Below, in pieces: positions 8,406 through 39,394 of a stretch of DNA of 64,000 bases. The position numbers and the translations under genes are program-made. Numbering within the stretch: the stretch's first letter is position 1; the number at the start of each line of letters is the position of its first letter. The notes beneath the pieces are model-generated. The model was not told the DNA's origin. It saw only the letters and a program-made list of their open reading frames with translations, and ran no database searches. Source of the stretch: Antedon mediterranea (taxonomy: Eukaryota; Echinodermata; Crinoidea; Comatulida; Antedonidae). The DNA lies in assembly GCF_964355755.1 (NCBI RefSeq), contig NC_092670.1, forward strand, positions 4,179,001-4,243,000, read 5' to 3'.

Positions 8406-11400
8406 TTAAGAAACAAATGCATCTGCAATTGTTGTTTGAAGTTCGCGGATAAACTTCTTTTTCTCTGACGTAATGTGCATGTGACCGCCTTGCACTATGA
8501 CCTTTTTAAAACGATGATTGGGATCAATTTCTTGAGACCAATCGTCCAATGAGCTAAGCGGAATAAAACGATCTAACTTGGCACCAAATACGGTCATACC
8601 ACATTGAAGTTTTGTCTTGTGAGTGTTTCTGTAATGCTGGCAAATTTTAAAGCCAACATAAAAGCAAGGAATAAGACGTTTCATTAACTCAGTGTTGTGC
8701 AAAACAGCATCATCAACAAACGAAAGCTTTTGTGATTGTTCGTTGCTTATTGGAATGTTATTTTTGATGTTCTGTTCAATTTGCTTTAATAAAAGTGGGC
8801 CCTTTGAAAGTTCTATTGTATTGGGATAGTCGAGTGTGGGTGCATACCAGGAACTGACGATCACGTGAGCAGGATGCAAACCCTTATGTTGTAGAAGATG
8901 GGCAACCTCAAAGGCAATGAGTCCACCAATACTATGTCCAAACAATACGAATCTACCGGGTAAAAGCCGTGGCACTAGGTTATCACTTAACTTGCGCACG
9001 ATGTCTTCAAGATTTTGAAGAGGTTTCTCAGTATGACGTCCTTCCCATCCGGGCAGTTTTGCCATGATCAACTGCACATTATATTTACTTAATTGTCCTT
9101 GCCACCATGCATATACAGATGGGCCTCCTCCATTAGGCGGAAAACAAATCAGCTGGATTTTAGGAGAAGTAACTGTTTCATCCATTAGATACCACAACTT
9201 CCAGGAGGTATCCTCTTCTTGTTCTTGTTCATTGTTTTCTTTGCCTTCAGGTCTATTTTTGGCTAATATCTTTTTATAGACGGATATTGTCAAGTCTTGA
9301 ATCGTCATGTTTTCATCTATCAATTCCATCGAAGGAAATGGAATGAAAAACATTCTCTGAATATCTCCGCTCAGCTCCGTCGCGATCAAAGAATCTACTC
9401 CAAGGGAAGATGCTGAAGAATTCGGTGAAATATCACCTGTTAGGCCAATGCGATTGGAGATGAAAGAACAGAGCTTCTGAAGGATGAACAGCTTAGTTTC
9501 TTCTGGATTTGTATTATGTAGATCACACCACAGTGAACTCATTGATCTTTCAGAAGAGAATCCCATTGTAATTGATCCTACTTCTTCATTGCTGTGTTCT
9601 TTCATAATACCTCTGTACTCTGTGATGAAATCATTAACTTGAATATTCCCACTTATACCGATTTCAGATACACAACTGCTAAGCATTACGTCAAGTCCAT
9701 GCATTACATCCTTGGCCGTCAAACTTTCCATTCCCTTTCTTTCCCAATATTCGATCAGACCTTCTCGTGCTGCAAAACCAGTGTCTCCAATCACTCCTGG
9801 ACAAATGACGGTTGCAGGTAAACCTTGACTTCTACGATAATGGCCAAGAGAAGAAAGATATGTATTGGCTGCACAATAACTTGCCTGACCAATGTTTCCT
9901 GCCATTTGAACCACAGAAGATACCATTACAAAGTATTTCAGTTGGACACTACTTGTAATTGATATCTGATGCAGAAGAAGAGCACCCCATGATTTTACAG
10001 CCATTACGTTCTTCCAACTCTCTGGTGTCATATTTGCAATCAGTCTATCGTCATACTGCGCAGCACAATGAAATATTCCTGTTAGCGGCTTCGACGAATC
10101 TTTCAAAATAGATTCAAATGCATGTTCAACGTCTGCTCTTTGTGTGATGTCTGTTTTGATGTGTGTTATTGTCGATCCATGACTTCTTAAACTTGCCAAC
10201 TTTTTCTCAGTTTCGGAATCTGGTGAAGACCTACTTAAGATGACAACATTTCCAGCTCCATTATCCACCAACCATTCTACAAGACAAATGCCAAATCCTG
10301 TCGTGCCTCCAGTAACAATATACGAATTGTTCATACTAAATTTAGTCTCATTCCCAGAAAAATCATAATTTACAGGAACGGATTCATTAATATCAACAGA
10401 AAAGATAACTTCATCAAAAGAAAAATTAGCATGGCTTTTCCATTCATTCAACGGGATAATTCGTGAACTGACTTGTTGTAAAAGGTGCATGGCTGATGGC
10501 TTCTCACAGATATTCATTAACTTTTTTAAGTGAGACCCCACTTGGTGAAATCCACCAAGCATTGGTAATTCGTAGCTGGTAAGTACAACTCTTACATTTA
10601 CTGGAAGACCGAGGTTTCCTGTAGATGAATCATCTTCTTTCGATTTTAGCATTTCAATTGTAGCAAATGGTGTCAATCTCTCTTTAATTCCTCCATCGCG
10701 CTGTAATAGTTCACTTATGTACGATTTACGTCCAATTACACAGCCAACACTATGTGTATTCAAAACAGTCATTGCATCTTCATCTTCAACAAATCTTAGC
10801 AAATTAGTATTATTAGTATTAGTATTATTATCTGCATATCCTTGAGGAAAGTGTTTAGTGATAACCACAGTACTATGACCTAGCTCTACTGCCATGTGTG
10901 CAACGGCTAAGCATTTCTTGTCGTCGAAAGAACTCAAGCAAACAACCGTCGTACCATTTGGTTTCATTTCACAAATCGTGATATATGGAATAAAATAGGA
11001 TGAGACAATATTAATTACTTGTGCAGGCGGAAGGTTGGTGTCAAGCTCAACTAGTTCATTAGCACTGCATTGCAACGTGGGTGTCATTTCACTTGAAGGA
11101 CAGACACCGATGACTACAGATGATTGTTTTAAATGTCCACAAAACAGCACAGCGGTTTGTACGTCTTTAGTCGAACTACGAGTTTCAGATTGAAGTAGTC
11201 GGAATGATTCAACATGTACAGTTGTCAATTCGGAACATGTGGTATCTTCTCCTTTCTTTTCACTGTATTTTGTCAATGACAATCTTCCTGATTGAAGGCT
11301 TTCAGGCACGTTAAACTTCCACACATCTGTAGACTTTGTGTGAGAAAAAGTATAACTATCAGAAATACATAGACGAAACGCATATGCGTTGAAATTAGTT

Positions 11401-14400
11401 GCTTTGGCTCGTAATGCAATAATTTGCTCATAGTTATCACTTCCCCAGATGTACTTCATCAACCAATCTGACGCGGTTGTATTGGTGACATCCGATGAAA
11501 TGTCTAAGATCGACAGGTCAAAATCCAAATGTTCTTGAATTACACATATTCCAAACCCGTAAGCAGATGCCTGATATGGATCAACTATGTCATCTTGTGT
11601 GACACTAAACCCATCTCTTGTAATGAGCCACACCTTTGTATTCACGTTTTTCAGGTTAGATATAACTTTGAAGTAACTGATGCACATCTCTGCAATGTCG
11701 GATTGCTGCTCCAAAAAAGTATCTCTGGAAATTGGACGTAGGCTCTCGCAGTTTCCGGGTTTAATTGTGATTATACAATTCAACGGCTGTTCATTACGTA
11801 ACTGATCTGTCTCTACATCTCCTCCGGTGTAAACTTGCGATTGAAATCCCACTGAATTCAATGTGTTCTGAATCTGTAAAGACAATTCCGAGTCATTCCC
11901 TGCTATCAATACAAAGCCATCTGTATCGAATGATTGCTTTTCCACATCTATAGGTACCCATTTCTTCGTCCACAGCTTCATTGTGTTAGATTCACGACCA
12001 TTAACAGATCCAAATCGAATTTTGGAACATTTACCAATGACTTCAAATGTGTCTGCATTCGCAACAGTCACGTCTGAATACATATCATCTCCATCGTCAC
12101 TTATTTTGAAATGAAGATAAACATTTTCTGGAAACGTACATTTTTTAAAGCAAAGCCTTTCAATTGATCTTGGTACACGACCTTGCGGCTTCATGGTGGG
12201 ATTTAGAATCTTACCTCGCAGTCGTTCAAGTCCTGCCATGCCTTGCAATATACCATCGAGGAATGCGGGATGGACGTAGAACCTGCTGGACTGTGCAGCT
12301 ACAGTTTCAGGAGCTCGGAGATATATAAGTGCTTCGGCAGCCGTTTTATTGTGATTTACCTTTTCAACGCACATAAAACTTTTACCAAGATTGAATCCTA
12401 CTTGATGTTTGAAGACATAAAATGCAGATTTGTCGAGTTCAAATAGGCATCTCTCTTTAATGTCAGTTACATGGAGGGACTGCTCAGTTAGTAGGTGTAA
12501 ATCCTGTCTTGGGTCGTTTTGGTAGCCGTTATTAATTAACGTCATTTCCGTATGCTTGGTCCAGTTATTTTCTGTTTTGTTGCTGAGTGAACAAAATCGG
12601 AAAGCTGCTGTATCACGAGCAGTCATTTCGGTTGTTGTTTCTATATCCGTGTTCTTATCAGAAACAAACATAAAACGGTCAAAGCGGACGTCTTTTATAA
12701 TTACGTGATAAGATTCAGAAAACAGGCTATGATGTGCCGCAAATGCTGTCTCTATAAATCCAGCAGCAGGAAAAACTACACTACCCTGAACAACGTGATC
12801 GGCAATCCATGGTTCCTCATTTGATCCAATACTTGCTTTCCAAACCTGAACCCCGTTTTTGGAAAAGTTTGCCGAGGTATCTGGTTTTCCTAAAAGAGGA
12901 TGAAAAGCATTTGGATACCGCATCACTTCGTTCCTTGATGGAGTTGCTGCTGAACACTCGATTCGTTGCCATGGGTACAAAGGTAGAGATTCTACTTCAC
13001 AGTTAAAATCTTGAAACTTTGGGGTCATATCAACTGGGTAACCACTTACAAACATTTCTGCTAACGAAATGTTAAAATTTAGAGAATCGTTGGTAGTAGT
13101 GCTTACATCACGTGGTCTTTTAAGGGAATGCGTAACAAAGTGGATAGTTGGCTCACTCGGCGTAGAAGCTATGATGTCCTTAATTGCTGGTGACAATGCA
13201 GGATGGGCGCCTATTTCAACAAAGCTATTATATCTGTCTTTAAGTATAGTATTTACTGCATCTTTAAACCTCACCTGTCGGCGAATATTACCCCACCAGT
13301 AATCAGGAGTATTAGCCTCTTGTAACGTTAGATAACGATTAGTAACAGTCGACAGCATTGGAATTAACGGCCTAGACAGCTTACCTAAAGACTTTTTCTT
13401 TGTAAGAAAACTCGTCTTCTTGAAAAATTCTTTCTTAAGAACTTCTTGTTGACGACTATGAAATGCATTGTTAACCTTGAGTATTTTTGTCTGTATACCA
13501 TCTTCCTTCAATCGGATTGAAAAATCATTTATTAACTCGGTTTTTCCTGACAGAACAATTTGTGTAGGGCTGTTAATAGCGGCTATGTCTAGATATGTGA
13601 TATCGGTAGTCGTTTTCAGCTTATTTTTAACTACCTCCACATCATGAAGAACTGCTACCATCGTTCCTGAACCACTTGTTTTTCTGAGAAGACGTCCTCG
13701 TTTATATATTATTTTAACTGCCGTTTCAATGGTGATAAGTCCGGCTGCGTATGCTGCTGCTACTTCGCCCACACTATGACCGATTATGGCACTCGGAGTT
13801 ACTCCATAATGCTTGTACAGTTCGACCAATCCGATCTGAACGCTACAAATACAGACTTGAGAAATTTCTGTCAAAGGAAATAATATTGCGTTTGAAAGAC
13901 ACCTAAAATATAGATTTAGTCACAAATGAAATAAGTTAACAAAGGCGTATTAGGAAGTGTACTTGCAATACCAAGTAGTATCCGGTACAAAATGGTACAG
14001 TATAATCCCTTCTTTGAGACGGCTCTTTTTAAGGGGACAGTTTCACGTCAAACGAGAGGTAATAATTATGTCTCTGTAAATAAAGTTGAAATGAATAAAT
14101 AAATGATTAATAAAGGTAATCTAACCTGTGTTGCTGTTTATTCTGTTTTGGTCTGTTTCCTCTGACAACATCTGAATAAGTGACCATCTTCCTCCACATT
14201 TCCAAAGATAACCGTCTATCAACTATGAATTAAACAGAAATGTATCGTAATAAATTTAGCTTAAAGACACACTTGCCTGAAATTTTTCCCGTTTGGTAAA
14301 AATAATGCATATCACTTTAAAAGCATTAAACCAGGTCGTTGCTGGTCTTAAATGTACGTTCAATGTTAAGTATGGTATAATGAGAAAAAAATGCACTATT

Positions 14401-17400
14401 TAAGTAGCTCGCTTCGTATGTTCTCTCGTAGTTAGGCATAGCTTTTTTTAGCTTTCTTTTATTTGTGTTCCCTTTACGATCGATCGAAAGTGGGTGCATC
14501 ACAGAAGCAATATGAAAATATTAATCCATTCTCGATGAATTCTGGTATTTATAGCGGGTCACTTAAATTATTAGAACCGGCTTATTTTTAAGGTAAAGTG
14601 TTTTAAAATATAGTTTAAATGTTTCTGTATTTGCAAAAAGTATCAAATCTCCGGCCAACCAACATGCAAACCGCCCTAACCATACGGATACTATTTCCAG
14701 ACCAAATATACTTTGTAGGCCGACAACAAAAACTAAAGACCCAAACTTGTTGTTGACATTCTTTGGATATACCTTTACTAATAGATTCGAACCCTATAGA
14801 ATAAGAATATTATTAATAATAATACCTGTATGACTTTAAAGAAGATAGGCTGTGTATTCATCAAGTCTCTTGCCATGCCCCACCACTGAGTACCCATTCC
14901 AGAGAAAACAAAAACAGTTCTGATGACAGAATTACCTTCTTGTACCTTGCCTTCAATTACAGTATCTACTCTGCTTCCTTGCACTTTCTGTTGCAGTATG
15001 CTGCGAAATTCATTTCTAGACTTAGCTAAAAAAACTGCTCTCTCTGCATGATTGTGGCTCCTTAAACTTGCAGTGTATAACACATTTTTAAAAGCACTAT
15101 CATTAAAATCAAATGACAGAAACTTTTTCCAGTCAACATATCTTTGTTCAAGAGCTTTGGGTGAATTAGCCGAAATCATTAACAGGTTATATGATTCCAA
15201 TGAATCAGTTTGCTTAGTGCATTGTTGGTCTGACGGTGCGGCCTCAAACACAACATGTGCGTTAGCACCACCGAAGCCAAATGAGCTGCACCCTGCAAGA
15301 AGATTTGATCCAGAAGGCCAAGGAATGCTTGTTGAAGGGACTCTTAAATTCAGATCTTCAAAATTAATATTAGGGTTACCGCGATTGAAATGCACAACAC
15401 CCGGAATTTCTCGATGATATAATGACAATGCTGTCTTGATAACACCTGCTATTCCAGCAGCACCCTCTGCGTGTCCTACATTTGATTTTATGGAACCGAT
15501 ATACAGAGGTGGCATATCATCTGACCGTTTTTTACTCATGACTTCACCAATAGCATTCGCTTCTGTTTTGTCGCCTACCTTTGTACCAGTTCCATGTGCT
15601 TCGATATAAGCAATATCACATGGGTCGACTTTTGCAGCTGTGCAAGCTCTATACACAAGATCAATCTGGGCATCAAAACTTGGGTTTGCAATACCTGGAG
15701 TTCGTCCATCATTTGTAAGACTTCCTCCTCGTATCACTGCATAAATTCGATCTCTATCTGCTATTGCTGTTTTGAGTGGTTTAAGGATTACTGATCCCAC
15801 ACCTTCACTTCGACTGTAACCATCAGCTGACTCGTCGAAACTTTTACATTGACCATCAGGAGACAGCATACCAGCTTGACAAAACCCAATAGTGACAGAG
15901 GGTGTAAGTATGATATTGACTCCTCCGGCAATCGCTGTGCTGCAGACACCGGTTCTGAGAGCATCACAGGCCAGTTGTACGGCATAGAGAGATGACGAAC
16001 ATGCTGTGTCGATGGAAAAACTTGGCCCTCTTAAATCAAACTCGTACGAAATACGATTTGAGATCATGCAAGAGTTGGTTCCTGAATTTGTGTATTGACT
16101 GATGTTGCTCAATGGTAAGCCAGTAAGAGCAAAATACTCATTAGCCGTTACTCCCATATACACACCAGTGTTAGAGCCACGAAATGTCGAAGCAGGAATA
16201 CCAGCATCTTCAATCGATTCCCAGACAACCTCAAGAAGAATTCGTATTTGTGGATCCATATGCTCAGCTTCAACTAAAAAAATATAAAAATTAATGACTA
16301 TCAATGAGATCTTCGTGTAGGTAATGTGGTAGAGGAATTTATTCTAGTTTTGGGGGGTAATGGGTATAAAAAATTTGATGAGAAGGGTTTAAAATACATT
16401 TTAACCGGACATTACCGGACGAGTTCACAAAATTACTTTGTAAATTCACGGTCATTTAAGTTGATATTTGATACGAAAATTAAATTCATAACAGAGCCCT
16501 AAAATAATGTATTTGCTTTCAAGTTTTAAATTTTCTTTGAGGTTCGATGTATCGGATGAGACGAATAAATAATTCATTATCCTTTTCCTCATTTAAAACT
16601 AGACTTATGACTTTTCTCCAAACTATGTAATCCTTTTCCAGACTTTAAATTGTAAAATATTAGATCTAAGTATATATATTTATTATTTTTGCTTAATTTA
16701 ACATATCAGTTATTTACTATAGGCCTATTCCAAATTTTCTTCAGATTGGTAATTCTCATTCTCAATTTATTTTATTTATAGGCTTTTGTGTTTTTTTATT
16801 TTACTGTTATTGTGTATTGTATCTGTTGTGTGTCCCAAATAATCAGCAATTGCTGGATGGATCACCCTCATTAAATATGGTTGAAATAAAATAAATAATG
16901 ACATAATCTAGCAGCATTACCCTTCCGAACACTAAATATAAATCAACCTGGCCACTAAGAATACTGAAACTTGTGTTATTAGTATGCCTAGTTTTGCGGT
17001 CTCATTAAAAAGGTCGTCCTATACAGCTACAGAGACCTCGAAAATAGAGACCACATCCCTGGCACCTAAAAAATAGAGACCACACCCCCGGCACCTCGAA
17101 AATAGAGCCACAGACCCGGGATCTGTTTTCGAGAAATCTAGAAAACAGAGACCGGAACAAAAGTGTATTAATATCACGTTATATAATAATGGGAGTCTCT
17201 GTTTTCGAGAAGAGAACATCGTTTTTCCATAACTATTTAGTCAGTTACTTTTGGGATTTGTTAATTAGTTAGAGATTTAGTGATTTTCTAATATAAATTT
17301 AAGTCATTGTTATTGTTGTGCCATGCGTGATACATTTTAGGAAAAGAGTACAATGGAAGTGCAGAATAGCTCAAAATAAGCAAATTTAAGGTCATAGCCA

Positions 17401-18981
17401 CTGGATTAAAATATCAAGCAAATGAATAACAAAGATATAGCTATAGTAGTCCGGGTTGAACAATTCAGGTTACACTAAGTATATAATAGAATAAATACAG
17501 CATGAGATTATATTGCCATAAGCTGCAACCAGATATTTTTAGGGGGTGGGGGAAAGATAGCTAGGACTATTAAATTAAGACTATTAAATGCTCAAAGCTC
17601 AAATTAAGTTAAATACAATTCATAAGAATGTACTTAACTCTGCTACGCCATACTTAAATGTAACTTTAAGAAAGTTTGTGATAGATTTTAGTAAGACTCA
17701 GTTGGTAACAAATGGTTGCTCAATATTTCAGGGATTTTAGCACCGTCATTGCAGTGATATAATTAGTGGTTGCTCTACGGTTTTATTTAGTCTCAACATT
17801 ATTTACAGGTCTCAAGAAGAGCTAGGCCCTACAGGCTATAATAGTGAGGGCGTGTTGCGCAGTGTGTTGGACGTTTGACTACTGATCGTGAGATCGAAGT
17901 TCGAATCCAACTCTCGCTGCATTGCTTGTATGTACTTATGTTTGCCTCTCTTAACCCAGGTGTATAAATGGGTACCCGGTTAGATCAAGACACATCTTTG
18001 CGCTAATTACTAGCTGTATTATGGGAGTATCTTTCCATACGTGGTTGATAAAAAAAATGGCCGGGGTAATGTTTTCATGAAATTAGGCGCCATATAAATC
18101 CAGGATATCACTTTATTACTAGGTACTTTGGTACCGTCTGTGTTTAGTACATACACATAATAACTATCTTAACTTTAATATTGCAGTTTGGAAATTTTGT
18201 TAATGTAAACTACGCCACTGCCATTAAACAATAAGCAAAGCAGAAATCTGACATCGAATTTCAAAAGCCAGTTTTCTCGAAACACAAGTGCCTTAGCTTT
18301 AGTTTTTAGGGACGTCCATCTTTATTTCATAACAACTACAGGTAAAATCAGTATTGATAAATTGATAAACAAAGATCTATACTATTTCTACTTTTTATAT
18401 AAAAATTACAAATTAAATTTCCACTTAAATTTGGAGAAAAAAAAACAAAGAATTAATAATGTTTAACATTAGTCTATTTATTATCAGATTATTAATTTAT
18501 TCATTAAATAAAAAGTGTACATTCAAACATAACATGAAATAGAATCGGTTCGAAGAACAGTATAATGAATAACAAACTATAGGTCTACACAAAACCATTA
18601 AAACAGAAAATAATTTGATATGTGGATACTAATCAGCAATTTATACAAGTACTGTAAATATATTCGAAATAATTACTTACCTGGCGACATTTTGAAGAAT
18701 TGTCGGTCAAACTTAAATGGATCTTGCTTCAGGTAACCACCACGTTTGGTGTACAATTTACCTTTCTTCTTATCACCAGGATAAAAGAAAGATGATTTGT
18801 CAAATCGCTCAGCCGGATGAGATGTTGTACAGTCTCTCATCTCCTTCAACATACTCCACATCTCTCGTGGACCTGCCACACCATCGCCGTACCTACACCC
18901 AATTCCTACAATAGCAATCTTATCATCATCGCTTAAAGAGTCACCGCTGACGCCGGAACGGTATATATTTTGTTGGCTCAT
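8406..18981 (-). CDS. Type I iterative polyketide synthase 1 (KS-AT-DH-KR-ACP-TE)
   Basis: This predicts a 2,435-residue single-chain synthase that would extend malonyl units on its ACP and release the chain with its own thioesterase. Exons: 18981-18681, 16273-14826, 14222-14126 and 13867-8406; phases 1, 0, 1 agree. KS spans about 22-430, with Cys192 in DTACSSS, His327 in EAHGTGT and His368 in SNVGH. AT has FSGMGTQWWGM near 560, nucleophile Ser647 in GHSVGE, and NAFHSR (malonyl-type HAFH-like). DH has H973 in HVVQGSVVFP (HxxxGxxxxP) and a later DGILQ (DxxxQ). The segment before KR looks like structural KR plus a degenerate ER lacking the glycine-rich NADPH loop. KR has TGGTTGFG near 1801 and Tyr1946 in YCAAN. 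ACP Ser2108 lies in LGVDSL. TE has Ser2261 in GHSIGG, Asp2381 and His2411. No methyltransferase was recognised. It belongs to the animal FAS-like PKS group; an animal FAS is less likely given the dead ER. Product unknown. Confidence 0.95.
13739..13850 (-). other. AT-domain segment nearly identical in both PKS genes
   Basis: These 112 bases, encoding the AT nucleophile region around GHSVGEVAAAYAAG, match 28327-28438 of PKS2 with one difference by eye. Just beyond the boundary at 13739 the two genes differ at many sites. Confidence 0.8.
14476..14575 (+). repeat. Dispersed repeat family member (copy 2), in PKS1 intron 2
   Basis: It contains GATCGATCGAAAGTGGGTG, ATCACAGAAG, a degenerate AAAATATTAAT and TGGTATTTATAGCGGG in the same order as the copies at 3116-3206 and 63497-63600 (inverted). 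Confidence 0.5.
15387..15753 (-). other. KS-domain segment nearly identical in both PKS genes
   Basis: These 367 bases of KS exon 2 match 29875-30241 of PKS2 with about ten differences and no indels by eye. The tract includes the EAHGTGT and SNVGH coding regions. The neighbouring KS sequence at 15754-16020 has many synonymous and some replacement differences. Confidence 0.8.
16274..18680 (-). other. PKS1 intron 1 (2.4 kb)
   Basis: The intron separates the KS N-terminus from the rest of KS. It holds a tRNA-derived SINE at about 17849-18110 and, at 17030-17215, several short copies of ACCTCGAAAATAGAGA-type sequence and their inverse (TCTCTGTTTTCGAGA). No coding sequence was seen. Confidence 0.6.
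17849..18110 (+). mobile_element. tRNA-derived SINE, copy 1
   Basis: The head resembles a tRNA gene: an A-box-like region before GTGTTGGACG and a B-box-like GTTCGAATCC at 17899-17908. It continues with ATTGCTTGTATG, ACCCAGGTGTATAAATG, GGGTAATG and GCGCCATATAAAT. The same ordered sequence occurs inverted at 55505-55807, showing that this is a dispersed element rather than a tRNA gene. It lies antisense within PKS1 intron 1. Confidence 0.8.
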
Positions 18982-18988
18982 GTTTATA

Positions 18989-19500
18989 GCTTAGTATTAT
19001 TATAAAAATACAAAATAATCAAATGTAGTTTTTACAAATACGTATCATTATTGGTTAGAACAGTAAATATAAAATAAAAAGCAGCAGAATGTATTTTTGT
19101 ACTTTGCTTATTCTATTCAATAATTCATATACAATATTTATATTATTAAAAACAAACATGAATACTACAGGGATACAAAAAATTAAAAGCAACATAATTA
19201 TAAGAACATCAAAATCAATACTATAAACATTACTTTATACTGGTTCCAATAATTATTTAAAATATGCAATAAAAACTGGCTAAAAATATAAAGCCTTTAC
19301 CTAGTGTTTCAGTTACAAACTTACCATGTCTGCGACATTGTCCTTCTGGGATAATTCTAGTAAATACCATACAAACTTAACGATAAGCTACTTTTATTCA
19401 GTTTGCAAGCTTAAAGTTTGAGATGATGTCATAGAAAACCATGACGTGACCAACTAGAGAATACAAGACACTGAATACGTCACAAATAAAATTCGAAAAG
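18989..19500 (-). promoter_or_regulatory. PKS1 candidate 5' non-coding exon and promoter
   Basis: A good donor (ATG|GTAAGTTTG) on the minus strand ends a candidate exon at 19325. A candidate acceptor at 18991-18990 would join it 8 bases before the PKS1 ATG. Upstream are TGACGTATTCA (19472-19482), a second CRE-like TCACGTCA (about 19440-19450) and a TATA-like GAATAAAAG (about 19391-19399). PKS2 has the same layout, with the 11-base TGACGTATTCA word at nearly the same distance from its donor. Exon and promoter are inferred from this parallel; no transcript was seen. Confidence 0.5.
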
Positions 19501-20022
19501 AAAATCAATAAAATGTCTAAGCTTACTCATGGTGTTAAAGGTACTATTGTTGTATGATCACTGTATTGAATATTAAAACACTTAGGGAATTTGGGAAATA
19601 AAAAAGAAAGAAACCAATCACTCACAATCATTAACAAATACCAGTACCACACCCGAACGAACGCGAACTAATTAAAATAATAAAAAATGACTAGCATTTT
19701 TTTTCTTCTGTTTTAAATTGATTTTACTGGCATTTCTTTGCACAAGCTAATTTGGATTTTTTTATGTACTTTTTCATATATTTTTCTTTCTTAACTATCA
19801 ATACTGTTCATTTGCTCAATTTCTTTGTCAAATTAATTTTAATGTTACATTTGTGGTTTTTTCCTTTTACTATAATTAATGGCATCGAGACTGAATATGA
19901 ATGTCTGTCGAAATTAAAGAACCCATATTTACCCGTTTAACCTTATATATAAATTCGTTAAATCTATTATTCTCAAAGATATTTATTGTAAACTTTCAAT
20001 TTGCTACACTAAAAAAAGGAGC
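19501..20022. other. Intergenic DNA between the PKS genes
   Basis: AT-rich, with no gene recognised. T-rich frames at 19752-19940 encode low-complexity hydrophobic sequence without family resemblance. Confidence 0.4.
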
Positions 20023-20241
20023 GTTGATGAGGCTCACATTGTTACATTATATTTACGGTACTCTTATTTAGACAGGCCTAACACATTTGTTAGAAGTTTC
20101 TTTGTTGACTTTTCTTCTGCATGTAACACTATTCAAACACATATTTTAATCGATAAGATGCTATTTGGGGTAAATCTAGCTATTGTTTATGGTCTTCATT
20201 TTTTAACCGATAGGTATCAACCACAAATTAAATTTCAAGGT
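20023..20241 (+). pseudogene. Fossil LINE reverse-transcriptase fragment
   Basis: A 73-codon uninterrupted stretch reads VDEAHIVTLYL, LDRPNTFVRSFFVDFSSACN, TIQTHILIDKM and FLTDRYQPQIKFQG. This is the RT core of CR1/Jockey-type LINEs, in which the usual motif is VDFSSAFNTI. Frameshifts and stops follow immediately, so it is dead. Further decayed LINE sequence may continue to about 20650 on the same strand. Confidence 0.85.
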
Positions 20242-20649
20242 GCTTTTGTTGTTTTTTGTTGTTAGTGGGCATGGCATTCCTTTCTATTGTCATAATTTAT
20301 TGTCACGTAAGTCGGTAGCCTAAATTCAATAACTGTCTTACCTGTTTAATCCACTCATCTTAGTATTGAAATTTTATTAATCGGCCTTGACAATCTTACA
20401 ATAACTTAAGAAATCTAATAGTGTTAAGTCACGTTCATTGGTAATTGTTTAGTTTCATCAAAAGAAAAGGTAGCCTAGATATTTCTTTGTCGGTAAATCC
20501 ACACATTCTCCCTAATACCCTTATTTCATCACAATTTAACGGGTTTAACAATAACATTTTATTACGGTCGCTGACGTACTTTCGTAGATTATACTTTCAC
20601 CTATTTTCCCTGTGTAAGATTTTAGGAATAGAATTTTATTTTTCTTTTT

Positions 20650-22686
20650 AAAAAATAATCAAACATATAATAGTATAAAATAGAAGATGGTCTCAACATT
20701 TAGTTCTGTGATAGAATTTATATTAATGCTAACACATTGGTCGCGTTAACTTCGAAACCGCGATAGTCGCGTCAAAATTACGGTTCAGATTGACGCTTGA
20801 CGCGTGTCGCCTGGCGCGTGGATTGCTCACTCTGCATCGACAATGCGTCGATAATGTATGTATTGCATCAACAAGTATGTTTTCGTTCACATTTAAAAAT
20901 AAATGTTGACGCCATTATTGAAACATAGATTTTCAAAGGGCCATGGGCCATGGGTTTATAAGAACTTGTAATGGCTGGCGGTCACTTAATTTAGTTGCGG
21001 CCGTTAGATAGTGGCACGATCGGGCTTTCTTAACCCGAAAATCAATGAATTATTGGTTAACGTACACGTACCTTTGGTTAACATCACAGTATAATACACA
21101 ATTTCTATGTTCAACGCCCGTAGTATTTTAGTATTGCCAATAACATTCAGGATGTTCAAGTACTGAAACCTGGTTCGAACCATCCAGAGGTAGGCCTACG
21201 TCTTCCCGTTAAGAAACGAAGCATACTGTATAAGGCCTACACCATGTTTTGTTGATTGAATTTACTTGGTGATTTTTTTGTTTACTTTAGACTGATTTTA
21301 CTATGGCTGTTTGTTTAGCTCTTGAAACTGATTTGTTTGCTATGGCTATTTTGTGAATGTTTAGCCTTATTTGCTTAAATACCTTGATGTGGTTATTTTG
21401 TTATACTGTTTTAGACTGTTTAAAAATTACTGTCTTTGCTATGGTAATTTTGTTTAATGTATGCCTTATTTATTTGCTTTATACTGCTTTAGAACAATAT
21501 TGGCTTTGATTGGTGTACGGATCGCATGAACACACTCCATAGATGCATCACCTGTGATTGACGTCACGCTACACAAAATGTGTGACGTAACGTAGTCACT
21601 ATTTAAACACAATGCCATTGTCACAGATATAAAGATGCGGATTGCTAATTGCTTTACAGCTGAGAAATAAAAAAAAAACTATTTAAATTTAAAACTGGTT
21701 TTAATCTTTACAATACAAGGAATACAATATGTACATACTTAGCAACATTACCAAACATTATCTGAAACCTTTTCACCAGTCAAGTTAAAAATGTAATAGA
21801 AAACGTGTATTCATGTGAGTCAATTAAAGTCAACGTCAGAATGCTAAAACTACAACTCTGCTAAAATGGATGTCATGAAAATGGTAAGCATATAATCTTA
21901 TATATAACATTAATTATTATATGTATATATAATTTAATCAATATTTTAAAAAATATCATTTCATACCATATATATTTAAAATATTATTTTTTTTAAATGT
22001 TCATTAAACAATATAGTGATTGATTGCATCTTATACTGAAATTACACGATTGTCAGAAATTAATAAAAAATGATTGTTTACGGTACCACATAAGAGAAAA
22101 AACAAACTTCACTAACATGGAATACCCTTCAATCCCGCGCACCCTCATACTTTAAATCAAACATGTCCAGAGTAATAATTTGCAGCGATAAGTATATATA
22201 TGATAGCCTGCATTGTTCTATAATAATAATTGTTTTACTTGGGGTGGGTTGAGGCGGGCAGTTTACACCTCACTCACATATTCATAAAATAGTGATCAAA
22301 CTTCAACTTACAGGTAAGTCTCGTTTAATCTTCCTATTTTATTTCATATACGTTCGCTGTAAACTGAGATGTTTAAAGCCAACTCTGGAAACATGTTTGA
22401 ACTGTAAACCAAATAATTGACGGAAATGTTAGTTTCAATAAAACAACTTTATTTACAATTCCGAATAACTAAAACTAACATTTGTTTGTCTTTCCACAAA
22501 ATTAAAAGCTATAAAAAGTTATGCCATGTTGATTTATACTATTATTTATTACTGTTACAATTACATTATAATTCCCAGAATACCAATAGAAATCATAATA
22601 ACTTCTAGATAATGATAATTCCTGTCTATTTTGTTTGGCACATTGTATATTTAAACATCAATAAAATCAGTGTTCATATTTCTTGT
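20650..22686. other. Intergenic DNA between the PKS genes, no gene seen
   Basis: It contains a CG-richer patch near 20740-20830 (GCGTTAAC, GACGCG words) and otherwise AT-rich sequence. No conserved protein, RNA gene or long repeat was recognised. Confidence 0.4.
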
Positions 22687-23008
22687 TTTATTTGAGCTAA
22701 ATAAAGTTAAGTCTAATCTAGAAAGTATTATGAGTCTATACCTCAACCGTTTCCCTCCAAATATAACTATAATTTATACAATATATTTTATAGTTATTTA
22801 ACTTAATTATTAAAGTTTAGTAAGAACAAAATATTAGTAAACGGACACCATAATCAGTACCTTATTCTAACATTTAAAAAAATATGATATTAATACAAAA
22901 GTGTGCTGTTAACTATAAACTGAATGGTAGTACTTAAAGTGTTACTTTTGTATTTTAATAGTTAGGCAACGTAAACCTGTTTGTACGTTGGAGGGAATTT
23001 GGAGAATT

Positions 23009-26000
23009 CTAAAAATCAAATGCGTCTTTTAACACACTCTGCATTTCATTGAAGAATTTCTTTTTAGCTGATGTAATATGCATATGACCTCCAGGAACGA
23101 TTATCTTTTTAAAAGGTTGATTAGATTCAATTTCAAGACACCATGCGTCCAAAGAGGAAATTGGAATAAACCTATCCGACTTTGCACCAATTATCGTCAT
23201 GCCACATTGAAGTTTTTCCTTGTGAGTATTACTGTACATTTGGCAAATCCTGAAGCCCACGTGGAAACATGGAATGAGGCGTCGCATCAATTCATTGTTG
23301 CCCAAGACATCATCATCAACAAACGAAAGCTTTAATGATTGCTTGTCCACCACTCGAATATTGTTCTTGATATCTTGTTCCATTTGTCGTAATAGTTTAG
23401 GAGCATTTTCAAGTTCTGTCGCGTTAGGATAGTTTAGTGTAGGCGCATACCAAGAGCTGATTACTAAATGAGCCGGGCGGATGTTTCTTTCCATCAACCG
23501 ATGGGCAACTTCGAAAGCAAGGAGTCCACCGAGACTGTGACCAAATAAAACAAATTTACCGGAAATGAGCCTAGGAGCAAGATTTTCTGTTAAATGACTT
23601 ATCATTTCTTCGATTGTCTGAAGTGGCTTCTCGTGTTGGCGCCCTTCCCATCCGGGAAGTTTTGCCATAATTACCTGAACGTTGTATTTATCGAAGTTGT
23701 TTTGCCACCAAGCGTATGTAGACGGACCACCTCCATTTGGTGGAAAACAAATGAGTTGGATATCAGGGGTAACTCTTTCATCTATAACATACCAGGCCTT
23801 CCATGATGTGTCATCTTCCTCTTCATCATTATTTCCATCGTCTACAATCTGTTTTTCTGCTAATACATTCTTGTATATTGAGGCAGATATAGCTAGTAAT
23901 GTAATATTAGCATTCATTAACTCCATTGGTGGTACAAATACATTAAATGTACTTTGGATAAACCCACTGAATTCAGTTGTCATAAGAGAATCTACACCAA
24001 TCGAGGATGGCGATACATCTGGTGAAATGTCACCAGTTATACCAAGACGTTCTGAGATAAAACCACACAGTTTATTTAGAACAAATGACTTGGCCACTTC
24101 CGGAGAATATTGAGTAATATCATTTTGTCCACTGTCTCCTACTTGCAGTTTTATATTTTCTATATCAAATTCTTTCAGTATAGAAAAACGCCCACTGGGA
24201 ATGGTAATGTGTTCTTTGGCAAATATTTTATTCTCTCTGATAAAATCTCTTTCTCTAAAATTTCCACTTAATCCCATTTCCTTAACTCCACTTCTTAGAA
24301 GTATGCCAAGACCATTTAGTAAGTGCATTGGAGGCAAACCTTCAACACCTCTTCTATCCCAGAAGTCTACGAGGCCCGCCCTTGCAGCATATCCATCGCT
24401 TTTGATTACTCCAGGACAAAAAACAGTTGCAGGTAGACACTTGCTTCTACGGAAAAATCCGAGAGAAGATAGAAAGGTATTGGCTGCACAGTAACTTGCC
24501 TGACCCGAATTTCCTATCAGTTGAACAATAGACGAGATCATAACAAAATATTTCAAATCAGTATTGAACTTTACGGACATCTGATGTAACAGAAGAGCAC
24601 CCCATGATTTAGCAGCCATTACTTTCTTCCATACTTCAGGTGTAATATCATTTAACAGTCTATCATCATACTGTGCAGCGCAATGGAAAATTCCAGAGAG
24701 CTGATAGGACATATCACTTGAAATCCGTTTGAAAGCCAGTTCTACATCGGAGCTGCTTGTGATATCAGTTTTAATATGAACAATTGCTGTCCCAGACTTG
24801 TTCAGATAATCCAACCGTTCTCTTTCTTCAGCATCTGGTTCTGACCGACTAAGGATATACACACAACCTGCTCCTTTGGCAGATAGCCATTCAACTAGAC
24901 ATAATCCAAATCCTTTAGTACCGCCAGTCACAAGGTATGATTCTTCGTTTTTGAACACAATTTCTCCTTTTAAAAAGTCATATGAAGTTGAGACAGGTGA
25001 ATTTCCAACAGCAACCGTAACGTTACTAAATGAAACATCATTCATGACTGCAATGTTTTCCAGTGGAATTACTTTTGGAATCACATCCTCTTTCAATTGA
25101 TTGATCATAGAGGAAGGTTTTTCAAATAATCCAACTAACTCATCAAGGACAGGTCTCATTTTCTGAAGTTCGAGTTTTGAAGAAAACGCGTAGGAAACCT
25201 TTTCAACAACTGCATGTTTGGGCAATCCACGTAGCTTAGAATTAGTATCAGTAGATGACTCGGTGTCAATAATAGAAATGATAGAAAAGGGCTTTAGTTT
25301 CTCTTTCATATTACACAACTGGAACAATTCTGTAACTACTGATTCACAGCCAACTACGATACCCACGCTCTGTGAGTTTAAGGAGTACATGACATCTTTA
25401 ATGTCTAAAACAGTTGCTCTATATTCATCATGTAGATGAACTCCGTTGTTTATTGATAGATCTTTAACAGCTACAATAACATTATGTTTCAGTTCTGCAG
25501 CAATATGTGCCATTGAAAGTCCAATCTTGTCCTTATTTGAAGACAGACAAACTATTGTTGTGCTTTCTTTACAGGATCTAAAGTTACGAATTACACCGAA
25601 TGGTATTATGTATCTTGATACGATATTGACTATCTCGTCTGCGTTGAGGCTGCTCGTCACTTCAACGACGTCATCTTGGTGACATCTTATTGTTGATCTT
25701 AGTTCCTCCTCTTCACAGAAGCCAATAAATGAAGTATTCTTATCAGATTGGCCACAGAAAAAAACAACACTTTTATCTTCGTCAGAAGTATTATTCTCCT
25801 TCGTTGTCATTAAATGGAAAGCCGCCACATGTATATCAACATTATCTGTACAGTTTATAACGTGATCGCGTATGTCTTTAGTAAGAAACACTTTCCCATT
25901 CTGCAAACTTTTCCCAATATCGAATTTCCAAATAGAAGATGCTACTTTTAAAGGGAACTCATCAGGTTTACTTATAGCAAGTCTAAGTGAAAACGCATCG

Positions 26001-29000
26001 TATGGCCGATCTAATTTTGACTTACGTAAAGCAACTATGTTGTCACATGGATCTGTCTTCCAAATATAGTCGGTCAACCATTTCGATGCAGCTTGATTAT
26101 CAAGATTTGAAGGTAGATCTACAATGAATACTTTCATAGTAGGATCTTCTTGCATGACACAAAGTGCAAATCCGTAAGCAGAGGATTGTGTTGGATCAAC
26201 TACATCGTCGTGGTTTGCAGGAAAAGCATCGCGTGTTACAAGCCACATGTTTGGTCTTTGTTCTTTCTTACGAGAATATTTATTATATTGGTCTAAGCAT
26301 GATGTTGCAATATGTGCTTGTTGGTTAAGTAAATCTGTCTTAGATATTGTTGTGAGGTCTTTGTCACCAGCTTTAAAAAGCAAAATAATATTCTTCTGTT
26401 CGTCTGTATCTGAATTGAAATCTGAACCTTTGGCGATTGTCATTGCCGATATTCCTTCTTGTTTAAGCAACTTACTTAGGTGTTTCGTAAGATCACTATC
26501 GTCTCCCATCAAGATATTCTGACTTTTCTCATTATAAGATGATTCACCAGGGTATACTTGTATCCATTGTTTTTCCCAGAGCCGCAGATTCTGTTGTTCG
26601 TTTGTGGCAGCAACTGAGCCAAAACTAATTTGTTCAAATTTACCAAGTACAGCATATGATTCTGCATCTGCTATAGAAATATTTATTTTAAGATCATGTG
26701 TATCACTATACGCATCCGATAGCTTATAGTGAAGAACCACATTAGTTGGAAATGTGACGTGGCTTAAGTTGACGTTTTTTACACCTCTTGGGGCACGCAC
26801 AATAGGTTTTTCTGTTGGATTTAATACCTTTCCTTGTAGGCCAACAAGACCACCGACGGCCTGTAATATCCCATCAATGATGGCTGGATGCGTGTTGAAA
26901 CGAGAAGACTGTGCGACAACCGTGTCGGGTGCGTGAATATATAGAAGTGCCTCATCAACCATTCGACTGTACTTTACCTTTTCGATGCACATGAAACTGT
27001 TACCAAGACTAAAGCCATGTTTTGTCATAATGTCATAAAAACCAGATTTATCCAATTCCCCAAGACACCTTCCTTTTATCTCAAAAATTGGAAGAAACGA
27101 TTGTTTCTCTTCTGAATTGTTTTTTGTTTGTTTTAGATGCATAGTTGAATGTGTCATCCATTTGTTTTCTTTTGTGTTGAAAGATCGTAATGCGAATGTT
27201 GCTTGTCCATTCAATTCCATCTCAGTCGTTGTTTCTAGTATTGTGTCAGCTTCAGAAACAAAAAGAAACCTGTCAAAGCGAAGATCCGACATCACTACTG
27301 GGCGAGAATCTGTAAACAACTCACGATGAGCAGCAATGGCTGTCTCTATAAAGCCAGCAGCTGGAAGTACGACACTTCCTTGGAGAATATGATCGGCAAT
27401 CCACGGTTCTTTGTGAGTTCCAATGTTTGATTTCCAAACTCGAAGTTTCTTGTTTTCGTGATAGTTTGCGGATGATTCTGACTCCCCTAATAGAGGATGA
27501 CAATGATGTGGATATCTCATATTTATATCAGCTGCTTCAGTTGCTGCCGAACATGTAATTCGTTGCCATGGATACAGAGGTAAAGACTCTACTTCGACCT
27601 TAAACCCTTGAAAATACGGTGACAAATCGACTTTGTAGCCACTTACGAATAATTGTGCTATTGACATATTAAAACTCAGAATATCGTTGGCAGAGTTACT
27701 AACATCACGGGGTCTTTTGAGAGAATGAGTAATGAACTGAATAGTTGGTTTGTTCGGTGTAGAAGCTATGGTATCTTTAATTGCCGGTGCCAATGCAGGA
27801 TGGGCACCTATTTCAAGAAAACTGTTGTATCCATCCTTGAGTACAGCATCCACTGCGTCTTTGAATCTCACTTTATGGCGAATATTATTCCACCAGTACT
27901 CGGAGCTATTTGCTTCTTGCAGCGTAAGATACCGGTTTGTGACGGTTGACATCATTGGGAAAAGAGGTCTGTGACAGTTAGACGACGATGACTTACGTTT
28001 CTTTAGAAAGCGTGTTTCTTTAAAGAATTCTTTTTTAAGAATTTCCTGTTGACGGCTGTGGAAGGCGTTATTTACCTTTAGTTCTCTTGCTTGTATACCA
28101 TCTTGTTTAAGTTTTGAAGTGAGCTTGTTGATAGATAGTGTTGTACCAGAAACCACTATCTGAGAAGGACTATTAAGAGCAGCTACGTCCAAATCCGTGG
28201 ATTTTAGTTGATCTTGTATATCATCAACATCATGAAGAATTGCTGCCATTGTTCCTGACCCACTAGTTTTTACAAGAAGATGACCTCTTGTAAAAATTAT
28301 TCTAACAGCAGTTGACATAGATATGAGTCCGGCTGCGTATGCTGCTGCTACTTCGCCCACACTATGACCGATTATGGCACTCGGAGTTACTCCATAATGC
28401 TTGTACAGTTCGACTAATCCGATCTGAACGCTACAAATGCAAGTTTGGGAAATTTCTGTGAAAATATAATATTTTTTATGTAATTAACAATAATAATAAT
28501 TATGTTATAAAACGGAATAAAAACATAAAATAATATAAATATTTGCTTTATTGCTTCTTTGTGTCTTTTCTATTGTGTATTACAATTAATCAGAGACTAA
28601 ATAAAAAGAATTATTATTTTTTATTATCAACGAACAGAATTAATGCAATGAAATAAAAAAGTTGTTTAACTTTTAAGGTTTGGAGTAATTCCGGGTCAAC
28701 TAGAGGTTCATATTCCCATCATTTTTTCACCATATTCATTCAACCCAAACCACCGGCCATTATATATGTATACTCCAAATAGACCAACAACATTAAAAAG
28801 AAAAAGTTGATTATGTGTAATCGTTAAAACAAGTAACTTACCCGTATTGTTGATTCTGTCTTTGTCATTTTCTTCTGACAGCATTTGTACAAGTGACCAT
28901 GTTGCACCGTATTTACCAAGTATTACGTCTATTTTCTACATTAGCAATAACAAATTTCTTATATTCAATATATTTATTTTGGGAATTTTAATCATTTTGA

Positions 29001-31507
29001 CTAAATATTTTAACAAATCATCAATTTTAAACGGACATCTATACTATCACTCGTGCTTTATCCTTAAAACCTACATGGACATCAACTAAACGTTTCTTAT
29101 ATAAAAAAATTAACTAACAAATAGAAATTAACAGCCTGAATGAATTGTACGGTAACCAGTAAAAGTGTAAATGTATTTATAAAAAACATACAATTTTTTA
29201 CGAGAGAAGATGTATGTTAAGGTTTTTAGTGACAGTCTCTTTACTAAGGTAGGAAGTTTTACATCAAAATGGAACCATATACTTACCTTTATAACACTGT
29301 TGAATATCAGCTGAGTGTTCATTAACTGCCTAGCCATGCCCCACCATTGAGTGCCCATACCAGAAAATACAAACACTATTCTGATGAATGTATTTCCCTC
29401 TGGTGCCTTTCCTTCAAACGTCATATTAGAGTTTGAATTTCCTTTCACTCTATCACGAAGAAGTTTTACCAACTCATTTCTAGATTTTGCCAGCAATGCC
29501 AACCTGTCTGAATGACGATGGGATCGTACATTTGCTGTATAAAGTGCATTTATGAATGCATCAGATCTCATTTCAAGGTCTTCCACAAGAAAATCCACCC
29601 AGTTGGAACATCTCTCATCAAGCGCTTCTTTCGAAGATGCCGATAATAATAACGTGTGGTATTCACCGTCATTACCATTCATGTTATCAATTCTGTTTGG
29701 TAAACTGTTAAATGGTTTTAATGGTGCGGCTTCAAAAACGACATGCGCGTTAGCCCCACCGAATCCAAACGAGCTGCAACCTGCGAGAAATTTTGAACCA
29801 GTCGGCCAGGGAATGCTTGTTGGTGGAACTTTCAGTTTCAGATCCTTGAAATTGATGTTTGGATTACCGCGTTTGAAATGCACAACACCCGGAATTTCTC
29901 GATGATATAATGACAATGCTGTCTTAATAACACCTGCTATTCCAGCAGCACCCTCTGCGTGTCCTACATTTGATTTTATGGAACCAATATACAGAGGTGG
30001 CATGTCATCTGAACGTTTTTTACTCATGGCTTCACCAATAGCATTCGCTTCTGTTTTGTCGCCTACCTTAGTACCAGTTCCATGTGCTTCGATATAAGCA
30101 ATATCACATGGGTCAACTTTTGCAGCTGTACAAGCTCTATACACAAGATCAATCTGGGCATCAAAACTTGGGTTTGCAATACCTGGAGTTCGTCCATCAT
30201 TTGTAAGAGCTCCTCCTCGTATCACTGCATAAATTCGATCTCCATCTTCTACGGCACGTTTGAGTGGCTTGAGTATCACCGAACCCACCCCTTCACTTCT
30301 ACTGTAACCATTAGCGGATTCATCAAAACTTCTGCATTGTCCATCGGGAGAGAGCATACCAGCTTGACAAAATCCAATTGTAACCAATGGTGTAAGTATG
30401 ATATTGACTCCACCGGCGATCGCTGTATCACAGACCCCTCCTTTCAGGGCATCACAAGCAACTTTCACGGCATAAAGAGAGGATGAGCACGCAGTATCGA
30501 TGGAAAAACTTGGCCCTCTTAAATCAAACTCGTACGAAATTCGATTTGAAATCATGCAAGAGTTGGTTCCTGAATTTGTATATTGACCAATGTTGCTTTG
30601 AGGAAATCCAGTAAGGTGGAGATACTCATTGGCTGTTACTCCCATATACACACCGGTGTTTGAGCCTCGGAGTGATGATGCCGAAATACCAGCATCTTCA
30701 ATCGATTCCCATACAACCTCAAGAAGAATTCGAATTTGAGGATCCATATGCTCGGCCTCTTCTACAAAAAGATAATTAATTCTTCTATAAACATTTGGGT
30801 GTGAAATATTGACATTTTAAATTAGTATATTTTTTTGGAATCTGGGTAGTTATTTTCTTCTGAAGGACGATAGTAAAAAAAAATGAAGAATACATGTTTC
30901 GTTGTATATATTCCGTATAGTGTTTCTTTAGAATGTATCTGTAGAAGATCATTTACTATGTATCACATTGAATTTAATTCAATAAATTAAACATTAGATC
31001 AGAATTTACAGTAAATCTTACATAACATTTAGAGCAATATATTTTCTTTAATAAATTTAAGTCGTAACATTATTACTATGCTACGCTTGATTATTTTTCA
31101 AAAAATGTTATTGTTTCAACTTTATAATACTTGTGTTACTGTACTTCTACGCAAGGAAATTAATTTATATAAATTATGATTAAAATGAATTTACCTGGAG
31201 ACATCTTAAAGAACTGTCGGTCAAACATCATAGGATTCTGTTCCAAGTATCCTCCTGCTTTGGTATAAAGTTTTCCCTTTTGCTTTTCACCAGGGAAAAA
31301 GTATGTGGATTTATCAAAACGTTGAGGAGGCGGTGGACCAGTACAATCCCGTTCCTCCATAAGCATTTCCCACATCTGGCGTGGGCCTGCAACTCCATCG
31401 CCGTACCTGCATCCAATTCCTACTATGGCTATCTTGTTTTCATCGTCAAGAGAATCGTCCACTGTTACTTGTGGTTTTATAGAACGGTAGAGGTTCCGTA
31501 TACTCAT
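23009..31507 (-). CDS. Type I iterative polyketide synthase 2 (KS-AT-DH-KR-ACP-TE)
   Basis: This predicts a 2,442-residue tandem paralogue of PKS1 with identical exon structure and phases: 31507-31195, 30761-29287, 28935-28842 and 28455-23009. The start MSIRNLYRS was chosen because it aligns with PKS1 MSQQNIYRS; no in-frame upstream ATG was found in the visible exon. KS: Cys196, His331, His372. AT: GHSVGE with Ser659 and NAFHSR. DH: His983 in HILQGSVVLP. The region before KR again has a decayed ER: it lacks the Gly-rich loop, reading IVCLSSNKDKIGLSMAHIAA. KR: TGGTKGFG and Tyr1949 in YCAAN. ACP: Ser2117 in IGVDSL. TE: Ser2268 in GHSLGG and His2418. All catalytic residues that I can locate in PKS1 are kept, so it should be active. 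The two copies probably make related products or serve different tissues. Confidence 0.95.
28327..28438 (-). other. AT-domain segment shared with PKS1
   Basis: Partner of 13739-13850: one difference in 112 bases by eye, with clear divergence just outside the boundary at 28327. Confidence 0.8.
29875..30241 (-). other. KS-domain segment shared with PKS1
   Basis: Partner of 15387-15753: about ten differences in 367 bases. A second shorter well-matched stretch lies around the RGPSFSID-coding region (30513-30595 versus 16023-16105). Confidence 0.8.
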
Positions 31508-39108: not shown

Positions 39109-39394
39109 AATAGTCAATCAGTACACCACATTTGTAAACAGTAAATGTCCGTAATGTTATTTATGGAATTAATATTGGTTGGCACTTTCTAAATTACGTA
39201 ATTTTGGTATAACTTGCTGGTTGCTAACCCGAACTGACAGAATCCTCCGGTACTGAAGGAGAGATGAATATACAATGGTTTTCCCAGCTTCATCTTATGG
39301 TTACTGATCAAAATATGACATATTATTTTATTTTCAACTAACTCCCAATAACGTTGCGTTTTTTTGTTTTTTTTAGATTGTTTATTTTGTCAAA

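Follow-up and report, generated by a model that had tools for sequence, protein, structure and literature searches.

Thioesterase-bearing type I polyketide synthase genes in the crinoid Antedon mediterranea and their probable relation to echinoderm PKS2

Two adjacent genes, designated here A and B, lie on the minus strand of a 64,000-nucleotide stretch of the genome of the crinoid Antedon mediterranea (contig NC_092670.1, positions 4,179,001 to 4,243,000; hereafter the window) and are compared below with the described type I polyketide synthases (PKSs) of animals. In echinoderms, SpPks1 and CrPKS make pigment precursors and work without a thioesterase (TE) according to PMC11414698, which also assigns acorn worms to the SpPks1 family and whose Introduction stated in 2024 that echinoderm PKSs lack a TE. 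The PKS1 of Strongylocentrotus purpuratus is listed in PMC4604110 as KS-AT-DH-MT-ADH-KR*-ACP (KS, ketosynthase; AT, acyltransferase; DH, dehydratase; MT, methyltransferase; KR, ketoreductase; ACP, acyl carrier protein), and Table 2 of that source lists the PKS2 of the same species as KS-AT-DH*-KR-ACP-TE. Knockdown of HpPks-2 leads to spicule defects and PKS2-type enzymes are described as needed for sea-urchin spicules (PMC4604110); single-cell work on a sea cucumber likewise gives PKS2 as a marker of skeletogenic cells (PMC10419132), and the gene is named among the sea-urchin skeletogenic effector genes (PMC10131483). Three coral PKSs and a long nematode PKS-nonribosomal peptide synthetase (NRPS) end in a TE, and three lancelet PKSs contain one, as given in PMC4604110. 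The animal fatty acid synthase-like PKSs (AFPKs) are reported in PMC10764717 only from molluscs and arthropods, with a KS nearer to fatty acid synthase (FAS) than to PKS and with no TE in mo-clades 1-3; the mollusc PKS genes of the same source have few introns, concentrated N-terminally.

An earlier note on this DNA had read the two genes as a lineage-specific tandem pair in the frame of SpPks1 and the FAS-like PKSs. The comparisons reported here make it fairly probable that both genes code for iterative type I PKSs with partial reducing activity, which belong to a non-FAS-like animal class, most likely the one that includes echinoderm PKS2.

Architecture and affinities of genes A and B

Profile matches above the curated cut-offs of Pfam give the order KS-AT-DH-KR-ACP-TE in both genes; the AT match is split across exons, its first piece lying slightly below the cut-off. 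The KS of gene A alone is matched with E = 9e-63, so that chance is not an issue. Neither an enoylreductase (ER) nor a methyltransferase match was obtained in A or B with Pfam at E <= 0.001. Both genes carry DTACSS, EAHGTGT and KSNVGH in the KS, GHSVG and NAFHS in the AT, HxxxGxxxxP and DGILQ in the DH, TGGxxGFG and YCAAN in the KR, GVDSL in the ACP and GHS[I/L]GG and GGHM in the TE; all the catalytic motifs searched for are intact, in agreement with the earlier statement that the located catalytic residues are kept. With KS, AT and further PKS domains joined on one polypeptide and their motifs intact, A and B are type I PKSs.

The coding sequence (CDS) of gene A runs from 18981 to 8406 (2435 aa) and that of gene B from 31507 to 23009 (2442 aa), both on the minus strand, and the span 8406-31507 extends exactly from the stop of A to the start of B. 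Each comprises four coding exons with GT-AG borders that splice into a single open frame, with intron phases 1, 0, 1 in both; the two minus-strand genes are as alike in exon number, phases and domain order as had been described. In gene A, exon 1 (18681..18981) holds the start codon and the N-terminal KS, exon 2 (14826..16273) most of the KS, the linker and the first AT residues, exon 3 (14126..14222) a part of the AT, and exon 4 (8406..13867) the remaining AT, DH, KR, ACP, TE and the stop. The exons of gene B are at 31195..31507, 29287..30761, 28842..28935 and 23009..28455, the last again with the remaining AT, DH, KR, ACP, TE and stop. All eight are minus-strand features of the gene models, supported in addition by a KS N-terminal match for exon 1 and by Pfam matches for exons 2 and 4 of either gene; a counterpart of exon 3 of gene A is present in the four relatives C1c, C1d, C5 and C11a introduced below.

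The position of the KS was examined by search scores and by a tree. A profile of the six KSs of the family, compared with sequences of the PDB, gave 441 bits to CurL, 404 to Dictyostelium PKS16, 385-388 to Pks13, 302-312 to mammalian FAS (rows 45-50) and 274 to EcPKS2 (row 60, the last of the best 60); the top row is a PKS with 646 bits, a sum of two KS stretches. Among the best 60 of 75 sequences, 44 PKS chains stand above the six FAS rows. EcPKS was missing from the best 60 of 148 sequences of a single-sequence KS search, the lowest of these 60 scoring 241 bits. The genome's own FAS, at C1:22.74 Mb (contig and position), scored 648 bits to mammalian FAS and 427-428 to EcPKS and thus behaves as a FAS. 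In the KS tree (43 rows, the bacterial ones being the 30 most similar to A out of 80), the six window-type KSs cluster together (100/100), a branch with 98/90 support placing them on the side of the bacterial PKSs; the own FAS is joined to human FAS (100/100), and two further genes of the genome, C4a and C4b, form a pair (100/100) apart from both FAS and the window-type group; the label 'own genome' needs three changes on this tree. Several branches are long, C4a and its partner meeting the long Dictyostelium branch, and the comparison with EcPKS is one of search scores, the tree having been built without it. The introns of A and B are few and all N-terminal, whereas the KS of the own FAS alone is spread over several exons. 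On these comparisons A and B are animal type I PKSs outside canonical FAS, with a KS nearer to those of microbial PKSs. Placement of the KS had been named beforehand as the check on the earlier reading, and tree and scores keep both genes outside FAS.

The TE domains, at 8439..9155 in gene A and 23069..23758 in gene B (minus strand), match PF00975. Ser2261, Asp2381 and His2411 of gene A, which are proposed as the catalytic triad on the strength of an alignment with RifR, are invariant across five paralogs. With the TE of A as query, 15 solved sequences were matched at E <= 0.01, the best being RedJ (71 bits), BorB (57), SrfTEII (55) and RifR (54); OLAH was the 11th of these 15 (44 bits) and the TE of FAS was absent among them. 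An AlphaFold model of the domain (pLDDT 83.6, pTM 0.86) was compared using Foldseek, in which BorB and RedJ came first, followed by RifR, ClbQ and YbtT; within the best 50 rows, ranks 1-16 are thioesterases from PKS/NRPS pathways, human FAS TE is at rank 29 and OLAH at rank 40. Judged by sequence and by predicted fold, the TE of the window genes resembles bacterial type II thioesterases and not the TE of FAS, with a PF00975 fold, RedJ and RifR as nearest relatives, a GHSxG motif and a late His, its catalysis being a prediction. The description of the domain as GrsT/OLAH-like was therefore right at the level of the broad family, the nearest relatives being the bacterial type II enzymes. RedJ, BorB and RifR, the closest to it in sequence and fold, are stand-alone proteins, whereas the TE of A is fused, and the identities in the Foldseek alignments are 21-25%.

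A dispersed family and its history

Genes A and B belong to an older, dispersed family. A search of the genome with the KS profile PF00109 listed 22 exon matches, distributed over the FAS (4), the C4 pair (2, with one long frame per gene), six window-type genes (12), two fragments (3) and a site on C8 (1). The six window-type genes with both KS pieces are A, B, C1c (C1:30.46 Mb), C1d (C1:30.55 Mb), C5 (C5:29.77 Mb) and C11a (C11:9.52 Mb). The TE profile PF00975 gave at least 6 matches, in A, B, C1c, C5, C11a and the FAS; the match counts of both searches are to be taken as minimum values. The reading frames of A, B, C1c and C5 stay open over their whole length, and these four genes bear a TE. 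C1d, with its other domains and motifs intact, is open until a stop 27 residues past its ACP match and has no TE match in the PF00975 search, which is read as natural TE loss or absence. C11a carries a frame break and two in-frame stops in exon 4. In the fragments at C1:30.65 Mb and C11:9.62 Mb, the KS active-site DTACSSS is replaced by DTASSSS (Cys-to-Ser) and EAHGTGT is lost, with frames of 476 and 493 residues still open; the fragment whose AT was read ends after it, and the AT of the C11 fragment reads GQSVG. Both are regarded as decayed copies or pseudoenzymes. The window-type family thus counts eight loci: four intact and TE-bearing, one intact and ending after the ACP, one broken and two fragments.

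In a tree of the region that starts at the AT active site and takes in all that follows, with C5 as outgroup, B lies outside (A, (C1d, (C1c, C11a))) with support of 100/100. The identities (A-C1c 69.7%, A-C1d 65.8%, A-B 58.6%) are in line with this, and A is nearer to copies 26 Mb away and on C11 than to its neighbour B. The tandem arrangement therefore predates the copies at C1:30.5 Mb and C11. The earlier term 'tandem pair' is literally correct for two adjacent genes, but they are not each other's closest relatives and other members of the family lie elsewhere. A lineage-specific duplicated locus is likewise too simple a description of a pair that came before the family's dispersal to C1:30.5 Mb and C11 and has probably exchanged DNA since.

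The exchange concerns a tract of about 370 nt in the KS (CDS nt 821-1189 of A), at 15386..15754 in gene A and 29874..30242 in gene B (minus strand), the latter placed by a constant 12-nt CDS offset. Of the 83 informative sites within it, A and B agree at 73, compared with 30% of the full set of 3183, and the segment score is 43, against no more than 13 in 2000 permutations. In two windows of the tract, A and B differ at synonymous sites by 0.07-0.11 and A and C1c by 0.44-0.54; the overall A-B value is 0.65. Among the control pairs, B-C1c and B-C1d showed no shared tract (scores as high in 310/1000 and 508/1000 shuffles), and the score of A-C1d was reached in 1/1000 shuffles; A-C1c (25 vs 24) and C1c-C1d (35 vs 24) scored above all 1000 shuffles, though with a smaller margin and within the first 400 nt. 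The simplest reading is that the tract is common to A and B by gene conversion, which is probable on this evidence.

The ratios of nonsynonymous to synonymous substitution (dN/dS, NG86) are 0.22 for A-B, 0.21 for A-C1c and 0.18 for B-C1c, with a range of 0.18-0.29 among A, B, C1c and C1d, and are approximate at a dS of 0.7-1.8; C11a was left out, its in-frame stop shifting the codon map. The values indicate constraint (purifying selection) on all four genes.

Five open reading frames (ORFs) of at least 120 aa were found in the window outside the PKS genes, of which two match Patched/sterol-sensing-domain proteins and three have no match. Among these five there is no tailoring enzyme to suggest a biosynthetic cluster, genes of short exons falling outside that scope. 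The Patched/sterol-sensing-domain gene lies at 39377-42100 on the plus strand, opposite to the PKS genes, and seems to be an ordinary neighbour. At the own FAS, a long TIVTVTTITFTIV-type repeat (C1:22740845-22743613) is open in frame with the following FAS exon and looks like an intronic simple repeat, stop-free by chance. The lone short KS match at C8:2387865-2388020 has an internal stop and gave no match in a tblastn search; it may belong to a mitochondrial KS gene as one of its exons.

Probable activity and the competing explanations

In the proposed scheme, an AT of malonyl type would load the extender units; the use of malonyl is presumed from the GHSVG/NAFHS motif rule. The KS would elongate the ACP-bound chain repeatedly and the KR and DH would reduce and dehydrate its keto groups. 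As no ER or methyltransferase is found in A and B, the product chain would be unbranched and unsaturated or hydroxylated, and the C-terminal TE would cleave it as a free acid or a lactone. By analogy with sea-urchin PKS2, the role in the tissues may be a skeletal one, and several products would be compatible with the expansion of the family. More tentatively, it is conceivable that the PKS2 class, normally small, has expanded in this crinoid genome into a dispersed TE-bearing family, its KS partly homogenised by gene conversion between neighbours and one intact paralog being TE-less, which would make partially reduced polyketides of skeletal or defensive use and not the known aromatic pigments.

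The last step admits another explanation, in which the fused TE has an editing (type II) role and frees ACPs that are stalled or mis-loaded, release occurring by spontaneous lactonisation or through an external enzyme. The nearest solved relatives of the domain are indeed stand-alone type II thioesterases, the paralog C1d ends just past its ACP with the other domains intact, and SpPks1-type enzymes function without a TE (PMC11414698). However, the domain is fused in cis and is under purifying selection, the TE windows of A-C1c showing nonsynonymous and synonymous differences per site (pN, pS) of 0.07-0.19 and 0.41-0.61, and in a single-ORF PKS of the cyanobacterium Scytonema a PF00975 TE occupies the same position. 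An editing function is hence rather doubtful, and chain release by the TE is preferred.

Two PKS1-like genes, C4a and C4b, lie about 45 kb apart at C4:27.56 Mb and 27.61 Mb, with uninterrupted frames of 2296 and 2300 aa. A domain scan, made for C4a, gave KS-AT-DH-MT-ER-KR; downstream of C4b an ACP-like reading frame was noticed by eye, and neither gene has a PF00975 match. Both read GLMD in the KS where A and B read TANE, the correspondence being matched by eye on a shared G...Y frame. GLMD is given for 17 of 18 crinoid genomes and GMMD for the other 77 echinoderm specimens listed in PMC11414698. Its presence in both C4 genes points, short of proof, to a crinoid genome, acorn worms being likewise members of the SpPks1 family; a search with a 20-residue peptide of A. 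mediterranea (PMC9793003) gave no match, which carries no weight without a positive control. The C4 pair fits the SpPks1 type better than A and B do, and these features suggest a duplicated pigment enzyme. It is accordingly very improbable that A and B are themselves SpPks1/CrPKS-type pigment synthases with a gained TE steering the cyclisation of an aromatic precursor: they share an animal PKS superfamily with SpPks1 and CrPKS, makers of echinoderm pigment precursors (PMC11414698), but the genes with the signs of PKS1 (MT and ER in C4a, GLMD in both, no TE match) sit at the C4 locus, and A and B, with TANE at the motif, make up a KS lineage of their own. The SpPks1 and FAS-like frame of the earlier note is not supported, the genes with PKS1 signs being those of C4 and AFPK membership failing on the KS scores.

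A recent bacterial transfer, which the position of the window-type KSs among bacterial KSs in the tree might suggest, is hardly credible given introns in 6/6 members with modelled junctions (A, B, C1c, C1d, C5, C11a), copies on three large contigs and a nearest bacterial KS about 50% identical (one scan); contamination is rejected on the same grounds. An old bacterial transfer of the KS is neither shown nor excluded, the bacterial rows of the tree having been chosen by similarity to A. Least credible of all is that A and B are FAS duplicates or AFPKs, since, although FAS likewise ends in ACP-TE, their KS lies outside the FAS clade and nearer to CurL than to FAS or EcPKS2 in the profile search, unlike the FAS-near KS of AFPKs, their TE is present (it is lacking in mo-clades 1-3) and not FAS-like, an ER is not matched and the intron layout differs from that of the own FAS.

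The assignment to the PKS2 class has to be weighed against several points. It proceeds from domain order together with the exclusion of PKS1, FAS and AFPK, and the order KS-AT-DH-KR-ACP-TE, occurring also in coral, is by itself no proof of PKS2. The discussion of PMC4604110 assigns an ER to PKS-2, unlike its Table 2, and the DH of S. purpuratus PKS2 is marked as without an active-site residue, whereas the DH His and Asp are kept in A, B, C1c, C1d and C5. In the six-KS profile search, FAS outscores nine microbial PKSs within the best 60 rows, and many PKS alignments extend over a larger part of the query than those of FAS (KS only), though Pks13, aligned with the same query part as FAS, is still >70 bits ahead of it. 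The dN/dS values, as noted, are approximate.

Comparison with known systems

The S. purpuratus PKS2 being listed with a TE, such a domain on an echinoderm PKS is not new, and the earlier proposal of the fused TE as new biology is weakened by that entry and by the three TE-bearing coral PKSs of PMC4604110; a report of TE-bearing PKSs in crinoids was not found among the titles that searches of open-licence literature listed. Taken together, the published PKS2 entry and the window locus suggest that the statement of a missing TE (PMC11414698) holds for the PKS1 type only. The interest of the locus lies in the expansion of the family, in an intact paralog that has no TE match and in the contradiction to this recent general statement on echinoderm PKSs; a family whose intact paralogs include forms with and without a TE offers natural material for probing what this domain does.

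As animal iterative type I PKSs with KS, AT, DH, KR and ACP, SpPks1 and CrPKS resemble A and B, but SpPks1 has MT and ADH(ER) and no TE, whereas A and B have a TE and no MT or ER match, and the GM/LMD motif of the SpPks1/CrPKS family is replaced by TANE. The mollusc PKS genes share with A and B the few N-terminal introns. The single-ORF PKS of the bacterium Scytonema (2392 aa) is colinear with them, KS-AT-DH-KR-ACP-TE with a C-terminal PF00975 TE, but has an ER and one uninterrupted ORF, whereas A and B have introns and no ER match. Three genes of the coral Acropora digitifera show the KS-AT-DH-KR-TE order of A and B, one with ACP*, together with an extra N-terminal part ('other'), a comparison drawn from the published table (PMC4604110). 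The closest likeness is to echinoderm PKS2 (SpPks2, NP_001239013.1; HpPks-2): the printed S. purpuratus order KS-AT-DH-KR-ACP-TE is that of A and B, and PKS2 accompanies a PKS1-type gene as a second kind of PKS in one genome, just as A and B accompany the C4 pair. The two are likened by published domain order and not by sequence, and where the sea urchin has its PKS2, the crinoid has a family of eight loci.

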